DNA from: Paenibacillus sp. Soil766
GTDB taxonomy: Bacteria; Bacillota; Bacilli; Paenibacillales; NBRC-103111
Direction of reading: 5' to 3'
Assembly: GCF_001428105.1 (NCBI RefSeq)
Contig: NZ_LMSJ01000023.1
Location: forward strand, 250,147-314,146
DNA length: 64,000 nt
Below the pieces are notes generated by a model, which was not told where the DNA came from, made no database searches, and was given only the letters and a program-made list of their open reading frames with translations. The translations under genes and the position numbers were made by a program. Shown here piece after piece: positions 28,032 through 36,308 of this stretch (within the stretch, counting starts at the first letter, position 1; every line of letters begins with the position of its first letter).

Positions 28032-30182
28032 TTATCTTCCAAACCTAGCAAAAATCTCAGGAACATCGCTTGCCTCAACCGGCTGGCCAAACAAATAGCC
28101 CTGTACCGTATCGCAATGAAAGTCTTGCAACACATGTAAATCTTCCTCATACTCTACCCCTTCTGCAATCACATTAATCTTCAGATTGCGCGCTAAGGCG
28201 ATGATCGTATTCACAATGGCTGCATGTGTCGGGTTTACTGATATATCTTTCACGAAAGATTGATCGATTTTCAGATGATGAATGGGAAATTCTTTCAAGT
28301 AACTCAATGAGCTGTACCCTGTCCCAAAGTCATCCATAGCAATCTTCAAACCCATATTCTTAAAGCTATTTAATGTCGCAAGTGCGACTTGAACATCCAT
28401 CGTCATACTTTCTGTAATCTCTAACTCCAAGTACTGAGGCTCGAGTCCTGTAGCTTGTAGGATATTTGCGATTTGCTCACATAGTGATCTATCGTAGAAC
28501 TGCTTTGATGATAAATTCACAGCCATGGACACCTTCGGTAAACCTTGCATCTGCCAGTGCTTATTCTGAGCACATGCCTTTTCAATCACCCATTTGCCAA
28601 TGGGATAAATAAGACCCGTTTCTTCCGCAATCGGAATAAATTCTAAGGGTGAAACCCGCCCTAGCTGTGGGCTATCCCAACGGATTAAGCTTTCAAAGCC
28701 GACAATTTTATTTTCAGTTACATTGACCTGCGGTTGGTACATCAGGATAAACTCGTTCTTCTCCAACGCTTTTCGCAAATGCTTTTCAAGCGTCATCCGT
28801 CTCTCGATTTTGGCATAGATATGAGGACTGAAATACTGAACTTGATTTCCGCCGAGCTCCTTTGCGTAATCCATTGCGATATCTGCGAAACGAATGAGTG
28901 TTTCAGGATCTTGATCATCTTCTGGAAACTGACTTATCCCAATGGAAGGCGAAATATAAATCTCATGCTCCTGGATCCGAATCGGCTGATTGATACATTG
29001 AACAAAGTTCTGCGTATAGACATCTAGCTCATCCTTCGACTTATGCTTCACGAGTCCGATAAATTCATCACTGCCAACGCGAAAGACATGCAGATTTTGA
29101 GTCAGAAAACTATTCTTCAACCTCCGCGCGATGACCTGAAGAATGCGATCACCAATATCATGCCCTAACGTTTCATTAGCTAATTTGAACTGGTCTAGAT
29201 TCACGAATACCACGGCGAAGCGCTCCTGCTGTACAATAGCATCTTCAATCCATTTCGTTAATACTTGTCGATTGGGAAGTCCTGTTAAGGGATCATGATG
29301 GACCAAATACCGAATTCGCTCCTCCATACTCCGCGACTCCGTTATATCGACGGTTAGTGAGATGATCTCGCGAATAACACCATCGTTTTTGATCGGTCGA
29401 AGCACGGTTAAGAAATAATAGCCATGCCATTCCGTTTCGAAATCGACAACCTCTGCCATGGACCAGGCCATTTCATAGTAGTGTACCATGTGATCTGCCA
29501 TGTATTGGGGGAAGATGGCATGGATATCCTTACCAACGGCTTGTGTCTCTTTAATCCCAAGTCGATCGAACAAGGAACCCTGCCATGTAGAATAAATAAA
29601 TTCATCCTGTTCTTTTCGGAATTTCTTTAACAATCCGTTTTGCTGCCTAATCTTCTGGTGAAGCTCATCTCGAAATTGAAGCAGATCCTCTTCCATTTTG
29701 AGAAGAAAGGTGAGCATTTCGATATGACTTTTGACGGATTGTTCCTTCCCGACCATGTTGGTCTCATTACGCAGGAATAACTTTTTTCTCATGGCCGTTT
29801 TGCACCTTAACAGAAATTCTTCTTCTGTCAGGGCATTGCGTGTTTTCTGAAAAAGAGTTTCCTTTTGAAAAAAATCCATCGCTCCGTACTCCAGCGCTTT
29901 CATCGCCGCGTTCGAGCCTTCTTCCGTATAGCTGCTCAGCATAATAACCGGTACCGGATGGAACGTCATAATTTGATCCAAAGCCGTTAAACCATCCATC
30001 ACCGGCATCTCGATGTCGAGTGTAACCAAATCCGGTTGCAGTTCTACGATTTTGTCCAAGGCATTAGCACCATTAACCGCGAATCCCACCACCGTAAATT
30101 GCGGATCTTGATCAAAGAGCTTGGCAATCATATTACGCATTACGATGGAGTCATCGACAATTAGGACACGGAATGTTCTCAT
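28032..30182 (-). CDS. CheB-like receiver fused to PAS, GGDEF and EAL domains
   Basis: The ATG at 30182 (MRTFRVLIVDDS) follows AGGTG. The 716-aa protein has a receiver domain (1-120, phospho-Asp56 in TLDIEMPVMDG) closest to the CheB receiver, with VIMLSSYTEEGSNAAMKALEYGAMDF. A PAS-like region (about 180-280), a GGDEF domain and a full EAL domain (about 460-710) follow. The GGDEF motif reads GSDEF and the EAL motif reads ESL in ESLIRW. DDFGTGYSSL is intact, as is the ITESMT segment. Net phosphodiesterase activity seems more likely than synthesis. As last gene of the operon it is the probable output of CheA phosphorylation. Confidence 0.88.
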   Translation of the reverse strand: MRTFRVLIVDDSIVMRNMIAKLFDQDPQFTVVGFAVNGANALDKIVELQPDLVTLDIEMPVMDGLTALDQIMTFHPVPVIMLSSYTEEGSNAAMKALEYGAMDFFQKETLFQKTRNALTEEEFLLRCKTAMRKKLFLRNETNMVGKEQSVKSHIEMLTFLLKMEEDLLQFRDELHQKIRQQNGLLKKFRKEQDEFIYSTWQGSLFDRLGIKETQAVGKDIHAIFPQYMADHMVHYYEMAWSMAEVVDFETEWHGYYFLTVLRPIKNDGVIREIISLTVDITESRSMEERIRYLVHHDPLTGLPNRQVLTKWIEDAIVQQERFAVVFVNLDQFKLANETLGHDIGDRILQVIARRLKNSFLTQNLHVFRVGSDEFIGLVKHKSKDELDVYTQNFVQCINQPIRIQEHEIYISPSIGISQFPEDDQDPETLIRFADIAMDYAKELGGNQVQYFSPHIYAKIERRMTLEKHLRKALEKNEFILMYQPQVNVTENKIVGFESLIRWDSPQLGRVSPLEFIPIAEETGLIYPIGKWVIEKACAQNKHWQMQGLPKVSMAVNLSSKQFYDRSLCEQIANILQATGLEPQYLELEITESMTMDVQVALATLNSFKNMGLKIAMDDFGTGYSSLSYLKEFPIHHLKIDQSFVKDISVNPTHAAIVNTIIALARNLKINVIAEGVEYEEDLHVLQDFHCDTVQGYLFGQPVEASDVPEIFARFGR

Positions 30183-30198
30183 ACTTGTCACCTAATTC

Positions 30199-32700
30199 TT
30201 AAGTATTCATCTTCAACTGCGAGAGGAGCTGCTCTCGATCGAAAACTTGGATAAGCCGATCATCTTTCTTATAAATACTTCGAATCGTAGAAAGCGAGGC
30301 TTTGCTTTGAACAATCTCTTCATTCGTATCGTGCTCAAATACCGTTACAATTTCAGTTACGGAATCCACAGCAATGCCGATGGATTGTTCGTCATCGCGT
30401 ACAAGTAAAACACGAGATTTCGCAGAACTGGATTGTGGTGACAACCCCATACTGCTTCGCAAATCATAAACCATCAGCAATTCTTCTCTAATATTCATGA
30501 TGCCCAGTACGTTAGAATTAGCCCCAGCAATCTTCGTCAAAGACGGCATCGCCAAAATTTCTTGCACATGTTCAAGATGGAAGCCGTACCACTCCGCACC
30601 GAGATAAACCGTGACCAGCTCTCGCTTCGTGTTATGTTTGTCTTTATTTACGCGATCCTTCATGCCGAACCGTACATGACCAGCAGATGATTTCTGCATA
30701 ATCGCGTTCACGTCTAGAATGAGGGCAACCAATCCATCACCAAGAATCGTAGTTCCAGCGATATACGGAATATGGCCAACTATCTCATCCAAAGATTTAA
30801 TGACAATTTCTTGGTTCGCAATTAATTGGTCCACGACGAGACAAATACGTTTCTCTGCCATACCGATCATAAGGATCGACTTCTTGTTCTTAGCTGACCC
30901 ATCGTTCATGCTGTTCCCAGGTGAAAGTAAGGTATTCAAACGCAGTAATGGCAGAATTTCACCCCGTACATGACAAATCTCTTGCCCATGAAGCAATTGA
31001 ATTTCCTGTTCATTGTATCTGAAAATTTCAATAATGTTCGATAGTGGTACTGCAATCGTCCGTTGACCTTGACGAACCAGCAGGGAGCGAATAATAGCCA
31101 ACGTTAAAGGCAATTTCAAGGTAATCGTGGTTCCTTTACCCATTTCGGTTTCGATGTCAATGAGTCCATTTAACTTCTCAATATGTGAACGGACAATATC
31201 CATCCCAACGCCTCTGCCCGACAACTCCGTTACTTGCTCTGCCGTTGACATACCCGAGTGGAAGATGAGTTTAATAAGCTCCTTCTCGGTCATAAGCTGC
31301 GATTCTTCTTCCGAAATAAACCCCTTATCCACTGCTTTCTTCCGGATTCGATCCGCATCTATCCCACGACCATCATCTGTGACCGTAATCACGATGGAGT
31401 TCTCTTCATGCGCTGCCTTCATTCGGATATGCCCTTTTCGTGGCTTCCCTACTGCTTCCCGCTGGTCAGGTGTTTCCAACCCGTGGTCTGCCGCATTGCG
31501 GAGGATATGTATCAGCGGATCGCTGATTTCCTCAATTAACGTGCGATCTAGCTCCGTTTCTTTCCCTTCGATCGTAAGAGTAATCTCTTTATTGGCAGTT
31601 TGTGATAAATCTCGGATTAAGCGGGGAAATCTGCTAAAAAGCTGCTCAATGGGTATCATCCGCGTCTTCATCATGCCATCACGCATATTGCTGACGATTT
31701 TGCCTAAATGGTGGGTAATATCTTCGAGTAAATGAATATCGGAATCTTGTTTATATTTGTCTTGCAACCGTTTCTTAACTTCAACAAGCCGTGTATTATC
31801 AATCAGCAATTCACCAACTAGATTAATTAAATGCTCTAACCGCTGAACATCCACACGTACGGTATGAGAAACTGCAGCGGCATCTTTCACCACAGCTGGT
31901 GCTGGTTTAGCTGATTTGTGCTCAACATTCGGTGTTGAAGTCGATGGCAGCGTAGATTCGCTTCCTTTTACCTCAGGCTGACTATGAAATGGTGCTACAA
32001 TCACTTCGGATAATTGCGAAATACGATTGATTCTTTCTTGAAGCTCGTTGCGAGCATAGTTCGTTGAAACAAGGAAATGGATTGGAGCCTCCAGATCTTC
32101 ATCTGTGCTCGACGCATTGAAGCTCGGCTGTGTCGATAACACATCGCCCATTTCTTGCAGCTCTCGAAGCACGAGCACTGCTCGGACTGCTTTCATCACA
32201 GAGCCTGGTTCAATTAAGATGCGAATAGATAGGAGTTCCGGCTCAGCCGTGGCTGATTCTAGAAGTACTGATTCTGATGCTGCTACATGTGCTGTATCCA
32301 GAAGAACTCGTTCTCCGTGAGAAAGCTGCTCAAGAACTGCAATGAGATGCTCCACCGCTTGCTCTTCATAATTCCCTTTCAGGAAGAGCTCTCTTTGGTG
32401 CTTCATATAATCAATACTTTGGAACAACACATTCATAAGTTCTGTATGAACTTGAATCCGGTTATTGCGAAGATGATCAAAAATATTTTCCAGTTTATGC
32501 ATCATCTCTTTCAGCTTGTCAAACCCCATGGCAGCGGCAGAACCTTTGAGCGTATGAGCGATACGAAAAATGGTTTGAATCGTTTCCGGCTTACTTCCGT
32601 TCTCCTCAAGCTCTAATAGACTCTTATCCAAGAGAAGAAGCTGTTCACTCAATTCATCCAGAAACACACCCATATAGACTTCCATTTGAAAATCACTCAT
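30199..32700 (-). CDS. CheA-type histidine kinase with an extra C-terminal CheW domain
   Basis: The start at 32700 has AGGAGG 8 bases upstream and overlaps the end of cheW by 8 bases; the longer frame covers cheW sequence. The 833-aa protein has an HPt domain with His49 in IAHTLKGSAAAMGF, a linker, a dimerisation helix pair, an HATPase domain (HILRNAADHGLETP, DDGRGID, GRGVGMDIV) and a CheW-like regulatory domain. After that comes a second CheW-like domain (from about 690, RELVTVYLGAEWYGFHLEHV). No P2 domain is apparent. The second CheW domain could strengthen array coupling. Confidence 0.9.
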   Translation of the reverse strand: MSDFQMEVYMGVFLDELSEQLLLLDKSLLELEENGSKPETIQTIFRIAHTLKGSAAAMGFDKLKEMMHKLENIFDHLRNNRIQVHTELMNVLFQSIDYMKHQRELFLKGNYEEQAVEHLIAVLEQLSHGERVLLDTAHVAASESVLLESATAEPELLSIRILIEPGSVMKAVRAVLVLRELQEMGDVLSTQPSFNASSTDEDLEAPIHFLVSTNYARNELQERINRISQLSEVIVAPFHSQPEVKGSESTLPSTSTPNVEHKSAKPAPAVVKDAAAVSHTVRVDVQRLEHLINLVGELLIDNTRLVEVKKRLQDKYKQDSDIHLLEDITHHLGKIVSNMRDGMMKTRMIPIEQLFSRFPRLIRDLSQTANKEITLTIEGKETELDRTLIEEISDPLIHILRNAADHGLETPDQREAVGKPRKGHIRMKAAHEENSIVITVTDDGRGIDADRIRKKAVDKGFISEEESQLMTEKELIKLIFHSGMSTAEQVTELSGRGVGMDIVRSHIEKLNGLIDIETEMGKGTTITLKLPLTLAIIRSLLVRQGQRTIAVPLSNIIEIFRYNEQEIQLLHGQEICHVRGEILPLLRLNTLLSPGNSMNDGSAKNKKSILMIGMAEKRICLVVDQLIANQEIVIKSLDEIVGHIPYIAGTTILGDGLVALILDVNAIMQKSSAGHVRFGMKDRVNKDKHNTKRELVTVYLGAEWYGFHLEHVQEILAMPSLTKIAGANSNVLGIMNIREELLMVYDLRSSMGLSPQSSSAKSRVLLVRDDEQSIGIAVDSVTEIVTVFEHDTNEEIVQSKASLSTIRSIYKKDDRLIQVFDREQLLSQLKMNT

Positions 32701-33136
32701 TGCCTCTGACCTCCTGGAGAAACAGCTCACCAATATCCAATATTCCAACAAAGCTGCCATCAATTTCACCAATAGCTTGTAAATAGATGCTGCCTTGTTG
32801 ACCAAATTCCTCTGAAACTGGCTTAACTTCCGTAAATCCGATCACCCTGCTCACACAGTCCACTACAAGCCCCAGTGTTTTACCTGCTAGATGAACAATC
32901 ATGATGCGTGTATGCTTCGTATCCATGACTGGTTTAATTTGCAACATAGAGCGCAAACAATAGATGGGGATAATAATGCCACGCAAATTGATGACCCCAC
33001 GCAAATTCTTCTTATTTCCCGGCAATACTGTAATTTCATGCATCTTAATGATTTCTTGAATATACACGATTGAGAAAGCATAGTGCTCTTGCCCAATCTG
33101 ACCTTCAACATATAAGGGAGTGACCGTCGTTGTCAT
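32693..33136 (-). CDS. CheW-type coupling protein
   Basis: The ATG at 33136 follows GGCGGGG. The 147-aa protein has the CheW fold: YVEGQIGQEHYAFSIVYIQE, LPGNKKNLRGVINLRGIIIP and LGLVVDCVSRVIGF. It links receptor and kinase. It sits between the MCP and the CheA gene and overlaps the latter by 8 bases (ATGAGTGA), so translation is coupled. Confidence 0.92.
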   Translation of the reverse strand: MTTTVTPLYVEGQIGQEHYAFSIVYIQEIIKMHEITVLPGNKKNLRGVINLRGIIIPIYCLRSMLQIKPVMDTKHTRIMIVHLAGKTLGLVVDCVSRVIGFTEVKPVSEEFGQQGSIYLQAIGEIDGSFVGILDIGELFLQEVRGNE

Positions 33137-33152
33137 GTGCAACCCCGCCTTC

Positions 33153-34724
33153 TCACACTTTGAAATTCGAAACGGATTGATTCAAATCATCTGCTAAGGT
33201 AGCCAATGATTGGGAAGAGCTTGCCGTTTCCTCTGCAGCAGCTGCAGACTGTTGACTCACAGATGCAATATTTTGAATGAAACTTAGGACTTCCTCCGAT
33301 TGTGCGGATTGCTCCTCACTAGCGGCAGCGATTTCTGTCACTTGCTGTGCCGTATTCGCAACCATGCGAACGATATTATCAAATTGAATCCCTGTGCGTT
33401 CCGACAAATCGGCTGCTTCTGAAACAGCTTTGACACTCAAATCCGTATTTGTTTGCATGCCTTTAATAATAATGGCAATTTGTTTCGTCGCTTCACCACT
33501 GCGTTCAGCTAATTTTCTAACCTCTTCCGCAACCACCGCAAAGCCTCTGCCTTGTTCTCCTGCTCTTGCCGCTTCAATCGCAGCGTTAAGTGCTAATAAA
33601 TTTGTCTGGTCTGCAATATCATCAATGACCTCAATAATTTGACCAATCTTCTCTGCATCTTGCTCGAGCAAAGCCATCTGCTTCGATACATTCCCCATCG
33701 AAGTAATAGAAGCTTGTACAGCGATTCCGCCCTCTTTGGCACCATTTCTAGTTTGTTCTGACAGCTCCGCAACGACCTCTGCATTTTGAGCAACAGAATC
33801 AATGGCAAGTGAAAGTTCTTTAAACAAGCTATTTACGGTTTGCGTAGATTCAGCTTGATGCATGCTTCCTTTGGCAATTTGCTCCGTTGTCGCAGAAATT
33901 TCTTCCGCAGCAGCTGCAACATTTTGTGAGGAAGATACCGTTTTACTGATGAGCACACGAAGATTTTCTAACATATCATTAAAAGCGTCAGCCAATGAGC
34001 CAAGCTCGTCTTTTGTTTTCGATGTTGCTTTCTCTCTCAAGTCGCCTTCAGATGCTTTCGTGACGACGGATAACAGAGATTGAACTGTTTTCGAGATACT
34101 GCCTGACATATACAATGCCACACTAATACCAATCAGGATCGCGAATGCACCAAGTAAAATAATCGTTAATGTGCCTGATTGATTGTCGGATACGGCTGCA
34201 TCTACTTCTGCCTTAGAGCCTACCTCATTATAATGGATCCACTTCTCAAATAAATCTGTTGTTTGTGAACGAGCTGGTCTTACTTGCGTGATCGCTTCAT
34301 AAGCCATCTTATCTTCATTCTTGCTTGCCAGCCCAATAATCGTATCAGCTTGGTTAAAATAAGTTGTCATAGAAGCCAAAATAGCATCATAGATGTTCTT
34401 CTCTTCCCCTGAGTTCACGAAGTCAGCATACACTTTCATTTCTTTCAATGCATTTTCTTTGTTTTGTTGAATGAGTGTCTGAGCACTTGCAATTTTATCT
34501 GGGTCTGATTCAAGAATGATTTGATGAAATGCCACTCTGACTTCAAAAAAATCAGTTTTGATTTGATCAATCTTGAGAATACTAGGCAGCCAATTCCCCT
34601 GAACGTTTACTGCTGATTTCTGAATAGAATTCATACTCATAATAGCCACTAGCCCTACTGTAAACGTGAGTAGGAGTACAAGGATAAATCCTGCTAATAA
34701 CTTCATTTTAATTGTTGCCTTCAC
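33153..34724 (-). CDS. Methyl-accepting chemotaxis protein
   Basis: GTG start at 34724 with AGGGGG 7 bases upstream. The 523-aa receptor has a membrane segment at about 8-30, a periplasm-like four-helix bundle sensor (about 31-185), a second membrane segment at about 188-208, a HAMP domain and the signalling coiled coil. The hairpin tip reads [21 protein letters not shown], then [19 protein letters not shown]. The ligand is unknown; 4HB sensors bind small molecules. It is the only receptor in the operon. Confidence 0.93.
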
Positions 34725-34745
34725 ATTAAATCCCCCTATTAATGG

Positions 34746-35150
34746 TTACATGTCTTTTAATTGAATCGCTGAGAACACAAGATCAATGATCTCCCCGCGT
34801 GCTTGATTTAAAAATCCTAATGATGTTTGTTGTAAATTTTCGATCGAGATACAAGAAGCTAAAAGAATTTTTTCCGAGTTATAATACATGGAAAGCTCGT
34901 AGGACGAAGATACATTCTTAACAACTTCACTTATATTCGTCTTTTTGTATTTCTCAGGAAGTTCAATCACATACATTAAGCACAATGGTTCATCTTGCAT
35001 TTGTGTGATTAGGAAAAATTCTTTATACATATTCTTTGTAATTGCATTCCATCGATACCCAAACTTATATAAGGGATCCTCCTCCCAATTAGGCTCGAAT
35101 TGTGATTTTAATTCGATAAATTGCTCGCGGTAGTAGTGAATTAGATTCAT
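34746..35150 (-). CDS. Unknown 134-aa protein of the chemosensory operon
   Basis: I do not recognise this family. The protein opens MNLIHYYREQFIELKSQFEP, has no signal peptide or membrane segment and alternates charged helices with beta-type segments (PLCLMYVIELPEK). It is 21 bases upstream of the MCP gene and in the same direction, so it is probably co-transcribed. The ribosome binding site is weak. It could be an adaptor or a sensor-associated protein of this system. Confidence 0.55.
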   Translation of the reverse strand: MNLIHYYREQFIELKSQFEPNWEEDPLYKFGYRWNAITKNMYKEFFLITQMQDEPLCLMYVIELPEKYKKTNISEVVKNVSSSYELSMYYNSEKILLASCISIENLQQTSLGFLNQARGEIIDLVFSAIQLKDM

Positions 35151-35307
35151 TGTTGTAGTGTCCCTCGCAATTCCATAACAAAGTTTGTTAACTTCTCAAT
35201 ATCCTTATCTTACCGATGAATTGTTGTAAAACTTCTATCGAGGATTTTAGATAAACATGTTTTTTGCTAATAATTAGCTAATGTTTACATGAAATTGGGT
35301 AAAAATA

Positions 35308-35342
35308 ACGATAAAAGTCCTATTTTGTAAGGATTTTATCGT
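35308..35342 (-). other. Hairpin in the cheY to 134-aa gene gap
   Basis: Stem ACGATAAAA/TTTTATCGT with an inner TCCT/AGGA pairing, followed on the minus strand by TTATTTTTACCC. It could be an internal terminator or attenuator. Apart from it and the terminator at 35434-35474, the 35151-35486 gap holds no gene; it is AT-rich and probably contains the promoter of the downstream part. Confidence 0.5.
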
Positions 35343-35433
35343 AAATCGAAGTCTTTAGACCTATATCTTCCCTTACAAATATAAGACTTTACACCCGAGT
35401 TCATGAAATGCCCACACATCAAACTTAAATAAA

Positions 35434-35474
35434 AACGCCCATCCATGTGCTTAATTCAGCAAAGGATGAGCGTT
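35434..35474 (-). terminator. Terminator after cheY
   Basis: Stem AACGCCCATCC/GGATGAGCGTT with one mismatch, followed on the minus strand by TTTTTATTT, 13 bases past the cheY stop. Confidence 0.75.
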
Positions 35475-35486
35475 CTTCTATATGTA

Positions 35487-35843
35487 TTATATAGCTCTGC
35501 GTATGGCGTCCAAAACACGGTCACCTTGGAATGGCTTGACGATGAAATCCTTGGCTCCAGCCTGAATCGCTTGTACGACCATGCCTTGCTGCCCCATTGC
35601 TGAGCACATCACAATTTTCGCATTCGCATCTTTTTTCCTAATTTCCCTAACGGCTTCTACGCCTTCCATCTCGGGCATCGTGATGTCCATCGTAACTATA
35701 TCCGGTTTAAGCTCCTGATACTTCTGGATAGCTACTAAGCCATTCTCCGCTTCACCAACCACATCATGCCCGCCTTTCGTCAAAATATCCTTCAGCATCA
35801 TACGCATGAAAGCTGCATCATCTACGATTAAAATTTTTGCCAT
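35487..35843 (-). CDS. cheY: CheY-type single-domain response regulator
   Basis: The 118-aa receiver starts MAKILIVDDAAFMRMMLKDI, with phospho-Asp53 in TMDITMPEMEG, a Ser/Ala signalling position in VMCSAMGQQG and Lys in FIVKPFQGDRV. It is a classic CheY. AGAGGAG precedes the ATG. It is 18 bases downstream of cheX, whose product would dephosphorylate it. Confidence 0.92.
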   Translation of the reverse strand: MAKILIVDDAAFMRMMLKDILTKGGHDVVGEAENGLVAIQKYQELKPDIVTMDITMPEMEGVEAVREIRKKDANAKIVMCSAMGQQGMVVQAIQAGAKDFIVKPFQGDRVLDAIRRAI

Positions 35844-35861
35844 GATCTATCACTCCTCTTA

Positions 35862-36308
35862 TCATTGCTCTTTCAATAAAACGACACGGATATCTCCAAC
35901 CGTCTGAATGGAAATGGGTAACATCAGCTTGTTAGCCTGATTGTCAAAATGGTAATTTTCCTCCAATAATGACGGCGGTGTAATATCCAGTTCAACACCT
36001 TGTTCACCTAGAATCGTGGTGGTTCTGCCTGCAATTATGTTGGCAATTTCACTCACACAGCTATCTAGCATTTCACCTTCCATGTACATCCCAAAAATGG
36101 CTTCGCTCATTCGGCTAAATACGACACGCTGCCCATCTAAAATCATACAATACTCACTGTTCGTGAAATTGATGGAGACACCGATTTCATCCTTACGGAT
36201 TGGTTCATTGCTTGTACTTACTTCGGTTTGATCTAGTGATTGCGGCAGCATGTTGCCTATTGACACACGAACACTATCTAGTAACAAATTTTGCAAATTC
36301 TGAGTCAT
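35862..36308 (-). CDS. cheX: CheX-type phosphatase
   Basis: The 148-aa protein fits CheX/CheC: it has the helix with the key Glu-Asn pair (SCVSEIANIIAGR), where E and N lie in the order needed to dephosphorylate CheY~P, and a preceding beta-sheet segment (GVSINFTNSEYCMILDGQRV). CheC proteins carry two such motifs, and only one is seen. It is the first gene of the cluster. GGGGAG precedes the ATG. Confidence 0.85.
   Translation of the reverse strand: MTQNLQNLLLDSVRVSIGNMLPQSLDQTEVSTSNEPIRKDEIGVSINFTNSEYCMILDGQRVVFSRMSEAIFGMYMEGEMLDSCVSEIANIIAGRTTTILGEQGVELDITPPSLLEENYHFDNQANKLMLPISIQTVGDIRVVLLKEQ

Follow-up and report, generated by a model that had tools for sequence, protein, structure and literature searches.

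Chemosensory systems that act on cyclic di-GMP are assigned, in parts of a review, to the ACF (alternative cellular function) or TFP class (PMC8846402). Regulators in which a receiver is joined to GGDEF or EAL domains are known from ACF pathways, and the cited part of a survey of CheR-TPR clusters includes two regulators that combine a receiver (REC) with GGDEF as well as EAL in one protein (PMC3447774). Here, we describe a cluster of seven genes, cheX, cheY, unk134, mcp, cheW, cheA and rrGE, in this order on the minus strand of a 64,000-nucleotide stretch of Paenibacillus sp. Soil766 (contig NZ_LMSJ01000023.1, positions 250,147 to 314,146; hereafter the window). The source genome is 8.26 Mb in size, and its genus mates include Paenibacillus alginolyticus, P. 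qinlingensis and P. ferrarius. The last gene, rrGE, encodes a response regulator with a CheB-type receiver, a PAS domain, a degenerate GGDEF domain and an EAL domain. We consider it probable, if some way from certain, that the cluster is an ACF-like chemosensory pathway that controls cyclic di-GMP through rrGE.

The cluster resembles ACF pathways in that the chemoreceptor (MCP), CheW and CheA are linked to a receiver fused with cyclic di-GMP domains (PMC3447774); judged by domains and motifs, the genes for MCP, CheW and CheA stand together, and the linked multidomain regulator carries enzymatic output domains. Nevertheless, there are differences from the ACF pathways as partly described there (PMC3447774): no CheR or CheB is linked, the receiver is of the CheB type, hydrolysis is the only predicted output, an accessory gene of predicted YbjN fold is present, a hybrid kinase probably shares the regulator, and the host belongs to the Paenibacillales. 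Wsp of Pseudomonas is similar in passing a signal from a chemosensory kinase to a cyclic di-GMP response regulator and in its 4HB_MCP_1 receptor, but its output, WspR, is a REC-GGDEF cyclase, whereas an EAL phosphodiesterase is predicted here (PMC8846402). Membership in Wsp was rejected, since GGDEF is degenerate, EAL is present and no homologues of CheR or CheB are linked. The CheR and CheB homologues of Wsp are WspC and WspF. In Pch of Pseudomonas aeruginosa, CheA lowers cyclic di-GMP through a phosphodiesterase with PAS, degenerate GGDEF and EAL domains; in the cited part of its description, Pch has no receiver domain and acts with the chemotaxis CheA at the flagellated pole, whereas rrGE carries its own CheB-type receiver and the cluster has a separate CheA paralog (PMC3861689). 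The receiver and linker of rrGE match CheB itself, but PAS-GGDEF-EAL takes the place of the methylesterase, so that rrGE does not qualify as a CheB. Among the matches listed, titles and abstract openings of the largely open-access literature gave no description of the cluster or of unk134.

The proposed pathway is supported by recurrent linkage. A CheW-CheA-rrGE cluster with an MCP was found at 13 loci in at least four genera and two families, nine of them in the genus (G000, G003, G005, G008, G010, G011, G014, G017 and G024; the CheA of G005 is a remnant) and four beyond it (G042, G060, G642 and G736). An initial annotation of the window had proposed that MCP signals are wired to cyclic di-GMP and had called for a check of gene order in related genomes; the linkage recurs at these 13 loci, and so the wiring is probably real. 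The CheB-type receiver, its phosphorylation residues and the CheA motifs also make it plausible, but the annotation missed a hybrid kinase as a second likely input. Here and below, presence and absence across genomes refer to the matches listed. Close CheA orthologs in the genus comprise eight whole proteins with at least 75% identity and the one remnant, and rrGE lies directly 3' of cheA in all nine of these genomes. rrGE itself occurs in 14 of the 30 genus genomes, and the family set of 98 has it in 17. Of 398 Bacilli genomes sampled evenly, G642 and G736 not among them, the window genome alone matched rrGE at E<=1e-40; with one match in 398, this type of regulator is rare there, as the annotation had supposed in calling such wiring uncommon in Firmicutes. 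A reading of this sample as confining the type to the window's family was dropped because it is present in two genomes of another family. A different type of chemosensory cluster, which includes a CheB-like gene, was seen in the family at L213, L216 and L219, and MCP-like proteins of 916 and 1,139 aa occur in L213 and L216.

The features of the cluster are as follows (window positions).

cheX, 35862..36308, minus strand: 148 aa, CheY-P phosphatase-like; Pfam CheX/CheC, with CheX at 29.7 bits
cheY, 35487..35843, minus strand: 118 aa, single-domain response regulator; Pfam Response_reg
gap between cheY and unk134, 35151..35486: 336 bp
unk134, 34746..35150, minus strand: 134 aa, without sequence family; recurrent marker of the module
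mcp, 33153..34724, minus strand: 523 aa, 4HB_MCP_1-HAMP-MCPsignal (Pfam); short length class
cheW, 32693..33142, minus strand: 149 aa; Pfam CheW, 100.8 bits
cheA, 30199..32700, minus strand: 833 aa from ATG; Hpt-P2-H-kinase_dim-HATPase-CheW-CheW (Pfam)
rrGE, 28032..30191, minus strand: 719 aa; CheB-type receiver, PAS, degenerate GGDEF, EAL

The genes and their common direction are as first annotated. So is the tight spacing, with intervals of 18 bp (cheX-cheY), 21 bp (unk134-mcp), 10 bp (mcp-cheW), -8 bp (cheW-cheA) and 7 bp (cheA-rrGE), except for the 336 bp between cheY and unk134. A consensus scan of this gap showed no terminator-like site and no minus-strand promoter-like site; as the promoter and terminator sites in the scan stay below shuffle level (15 against 21.3; 4 against 6.4), it backs neither one operon nor two. 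All seven reading frames are open in the source genome. For cheA, the ATG at 32700 is the more likely start than the TTG at 32805, homologs beginning at the ATG position. Neither CheR nor a CheB methylesterase domain was found by search within the window, in agreement with the annotation.

Pfam reads rrGE as Response_reg-GGDEF-EAL. The CheB-type receiver of the initial annotation is borne out by the CheB model NF001965, which matches residues 5-145 with 149 bits (CheY_Halo, 62 bits), and by a 42-row receiver tree in which a 30-row set unites rrGE, CheB and REC-EAL receivers and excludes those of CheY and OmpR, at a support of 91/92 that is not starred and with long branches flagged by the program. 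The best receiver match in a structure search, made with a weak query model, was T. maritima CheB (3t8y, 37% identity). The phosphorylation residues are present in all 16 aligned rrGE orthologs. CheB-type receivers are phosphorylated by CheA. As for the PAS domain, Pfam gives no match in the window protein; the annotation's assignment nevertheless gains support from an AF2 model of receiver plus PAS, built on nine rows, which contains a PAS-like β-β-α-β-β-β region (blocks 181-280, pLDDT 71-88; whole-model mean 54.8), from PAS/LOV matches to this region in a structure search, and from a PAS_4 match just below the cut-off in one ortholog (E=1.2e-4). Since the model is poor outside the PAS region, that part alone was used, and the receiver type rests on sequence evidence.

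The cyclase half of a bifunctional GGDEF-EAL enzyme is expected to carry the metal-site Asp and a GG(D/E)EF signature. The GGDEF half of rrGE reads VNLDQFK, with Asn for the first metal-site Asp, and has a GSDEF signature, and thus does not fit such an enzyme; among the 16 aligned orthologs (an alignment without G013, where rrGE is split) and two further ones, only G034 has the first metal-site Asp. By contrast, 17 of these 18 orthologs retain the EAL catalytic motifs, the exception being the truncated G004. In the window protein, the EAL motif reads ESL with Glu retained, and the Asn, the ITE Glu, DDFGTG, the Lys, the EGVE Glu and the Gln are present. With the GGDEF half degenerate and the EAL motifs kept, the predicted output is breakdown of cyclic di-GMP, and the most economical prediction is that rrGE is a phosphodiesterase with an inactive yet nucleotide-binding cyclase domain. 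A diguanylate cyclase output was rejected on account of the degenerate GGDEF half, which appears catalytically dead, so that the 'turnover' of cyclic di-GMP first suggested is not borne out. The dN/dS of rrGE is 0.05-0.10 in ten pairs with computable dS; 12 pairs were compared, and two with saturated dS gave no whole-gene ratio.

On the input side, the window CheA keeps the kinase motifs AHTLKG, HILRNAADHG, DDGRGI and GRGVGMD. It is one of three CheA matches in the source genome; the second, on C59, lies beside the sole CheB, and the third, on C1, belongs to a cheW-cheA-mcp locus (L054:9256-13352 in G000) with the same short MCP class as the window. By BLAST comparison, no receiver-domain gene occurs within 20 kb of the C1 locus, and the target of its CheA could be rrGE. 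When both CheW domains of the window CheA are aligned with a flagellar-type cheA, the match in many genomes extends over a stop into the next frame; this points to a fusion of cheA with cheW as the origin of the second CheW domain.

The receptor belongs to a distinct length class. The window MCP measures 141 residues from HAMP marker to tip and 144 from tip to C terminus, a spacing shared only by the C1 MCP among the 24 MCPs of the genome with a tip motif (there are 25 in all; L128, without the motif, was left out). The 12 other MCPs with a HAMP marker form a long class at 162, so that the window MCP is shorter by 21 residues, or three heptads, per arm; ten tip-bearing MCPs without the marker, compared by tip-to-end length only, measure 157-165 to the end, with one exception at 292. 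We take the window MCP to be of class 38H, if the long class is 44H. Most cluster-linked MCPs in relatives have the 141/144-type spacing. Receptors of different length class form separate arrays, as the cited part of PMC6759762 states, and by analogy the short class suggests that the window MCP sits in an array of its own. All nine MCPs next to the cluster in the genus, and that of G042, retain the methylation-consensus sites on both arms, and two CheR (C23:42366 and C17:88946) and one CheB (C59) are encoded elsewhere in the genome. Loss of adaptation is therefore not established, and the annotation's view that the receptors drive cyclic di-GMP 'rather than receptor adaptation' was given up in the face of these sites.

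A search based on unk134 led to the second kinase, which is a hybrid histidine kinase some 1,090 aa long with 5TM-5TMR_LYT, PAS, HisKA, HATPase, two receivers and Hpt, the last just below the cut-off in the window genome's copy. This kinase is encoded somewhere in 13 of the 14 genus genomes with rrGE. The window genome, which also has this CheA, carries it on C27, apart from rrGE, while cheA and the kinase gene stand on either side of the same rrGE in G003, G008, G010 and G024. Five genomes (G004, G006, G013, G020 and G026) have unk134, rrGE, an OmpR-type regulator and the hybrid kinase together, in this order and without che genes there; their single CheA at E<=1e-60 is of flagellar type by similarity. 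This distribution, together with the presence of cheX-cheY just upstream of the cluster at five genus loci, that of the window included, speaks for the alternative that the hybrid kinase is the sole physiological kinase of rrGE, and that the che genes are passengers signalling to CheY as motor or phosphate-sink branch, their adjacency being historical. We regard this as doubtful, since the kinase has no ortholog (nothing above 30-37% to its N-terminal part) in G017, where CheA-rrGE is present, since G642 and G736 of the other family show unk-cheW-cheA-rrGE-mcp with no such kinase within 19-kb stretches, and since a CheB-type receiver encoded right after cheA wherever this CheA occurs in the genus does not suit a passenger role. 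It is more fitting to see CheA and the hybrid kinase as two inputs that can probably replace each other at a single regulator, rrGE. What is new here is a variation on the known theme of chemosensory control of cyclic di-GMP, in which rrGE is sometimes kept beside a different sensor kinase.

In a tree of 17 rrGE proteins, the five rows without che genes form one clade (100/97) inside the rows with che genes, the outgroups also having them, which fits a single loss of che genes; the tree does not settle how the three genus lineages branch. In this tree, the truncated rrGE of G004 is cut at residue 572 and G013 is represented by its first gene piece only. The dN/dS of rrGE is 0.061-0.088 without che genes and 0.054-0.104 in pairs with them. 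For the receiver only, it is 0.08-0.16 in the former and 0.016-0.06 in seven of the eight latter pairs (0.37 in the eighth), a weak hint of relaxed selection on the receiver where che genes are missing. A paralogous module of OmpR-type regulator, REC-EAL protein and second hybrid kinase was seen at L202:6482-7753 (G000:C20) and L205:6074-7378 (G003:C31), in stretches without che genes; the REC-EAL receiver in these copies lacks the acidic pair and so may be a pseudo-receiver.

Several observations weigh against an ACF-like pathway acting through rrGE. In five genus genomes rrGE is kept though this CheA is missing; rrGE is broken in G004 and G013 but intact in the other three, and under equally purifying selection there, so that CheA appears dispensable. 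Conversely, rrGE is missing from nine genomes that do have an MCP and a tandem-CheW CheA, namely G009 of the same genus (CheA 47%) and G035, G036, G039, G045, G061, G073, G074 and G097 of other genera; their CheA is about 41-47% identical to that of the window (ten candidates scored per genome), and a split operon in relatives, which the annotation would have counted against itself, is thus found in part. The CheA of G005 has lost Hpt, P2, the dimerisation domain and much of the ATPase, all before residue 521, and rrGE is intact there. The cluster MCPs of G642 and G736 have a long tip-to-end length (166), which breaks a strict tie between the cluster and the short class. Finally, the receiver tree is without strong support, and the critical GGDEF and EAL residues are presumed ones, after PleD and EAL structures. 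At the G005 locus (Paenibacillus sp. Soil750, L032:10127-11341), CheW residues 1-56 are fused in frame to CheA 521-868. At tandem-CheW CheA loci that lack rrGE (L206, L208 and L212), the MCP has a GAF/LuxR-type regulator of 574-718 aa as its neighbour; of three run against Pfam, one has a PocR domain above the cut-off.

Decay in relatives, with most of CheW-CheA lost in frame from G005, mcp-cheW-cheA-rrGE missing at the G016 locus and rrGE broken in G004 and G013, also raises the question of whether the cluster is a decaying relic with no present function. We find this very improbable, as the genes of the source genome are all open, the motifs of CheA, CheX, CheY and rrGE are kept, and rrGE is under strong purifying selection.

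The relation of cheX-cheY to the rest of the cluster bears on another alternative, an accessory flagellar chemotaxis system in which CheA signals through CheY to the motor with CheX as phosphatase, and rrGE merely tunes motility by lowering cyclic di-GMP. The window CheX has its ExxN motif at residue 87 (EIANIIAG). The window CheY keeps its receiver residues and has 68% identity with the flagellar-region CheY encoded elsewhere in its genome, and cheX-cheY lie just upstream in five of the nine genus genomes with the cluster, which would suit such a system. However, cheX-cheY are not beside the cluster in G003, G008, G010 and G024, and no close CheX occurs in those genomes; the pair persists without the che genes in G016, a close cheX is present in G025, where this CheA and rrGE are both missing, and the 336-bp gap parts the pair from the rest in the window. 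A flagellar role of this kind is therefore unlikely. A close copy of cheX (71-100%) was found in seven of the 30 genus genomes. At the G016 locus (Paenibacillus qinlingensis, L031:3236-6405), cheX-cheY and unk134 are kept and mcp-cheW-cheA-rrGE is gone; a 642-aa gene unrelated to the module lies between cheX-cheY and unk134. The pair is separable from mcp-cheW-cheA-rrGE, a point that the initial annotation missed.

The protein unk134 recurs beside rrGE with either the che genes or the hybrid kinase and so marks the module. It has no Pfam match, none of its 22 members hits a Pfam family at E<=0.1 (best 0.12, to an unrelated family), and no PDB sequence was found at E<=10. At L240, the gene was shown by tblastn, since an antisense reading frame overlies it. 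A YbjN/secretion-chaperone fold is predicted for unk134, but it has no profile match to the YbjN family and does not belong there by sequence. It thus differs from YbjN, AmyR and DR1245, as partly described, in lacking detectable sequence similarity to them (PMC5398634; PMC3575483), and from YbjN proteins in adjoining chemosensory and kinase genes in Paenibacillales. YbjN proteins have been proposed, in the cited part of PMC5398634, to act via protein binding. We offer as a tentative idea, with the odds against it, that unk134 founds a new family of adapters of this fold, through which a CheA array and an unrelated membrane hybrid kinase share one cyclic di-GMP phosphodiesterase, the sensor being swappable and the adapter and output kept.

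Gene content, recurrent linkage, residues kept or lost, receptor length class, receiver kinship and predicted folds were computed; from these we infer phosphotransfer, the direction of the enzyme response and the role of unk134. In the ACF-like pathway that we favour, the short-class MCP and CheW would control CheA, and the phosphoryl group would pass from CheA-P to the CheB-type receiver of rrGE. Phosphorylation of the receiver would switch the EAL phosphodiesterase and so change the level of cyclic di-GMP, with PAS and the degenerate GGDEF domain as further inputs, the ligand perhaps being GTP. The 5TM hybrid histidine kinase could also phosphorylate rrGE, unk134 may serve as a non-enzymatic protein-binding accessory of the module, and cheX-cheY, next to it, would be a separable branch that serves as a phosphate sink or leads to the motor. 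If this is true, chemoreceptor control of cyclic di-GMP reaches the Paenibacillales, with the breakdown enzyme as a built-in response regulator. A YbjN-fold protein, of a class whose partners are poorly known, would be set beside a few candidate partners, and these genomes, some with the array alone, some with the hybrid kinase alone and some with both, would form a natural series in which to study the change of sensor for one output.
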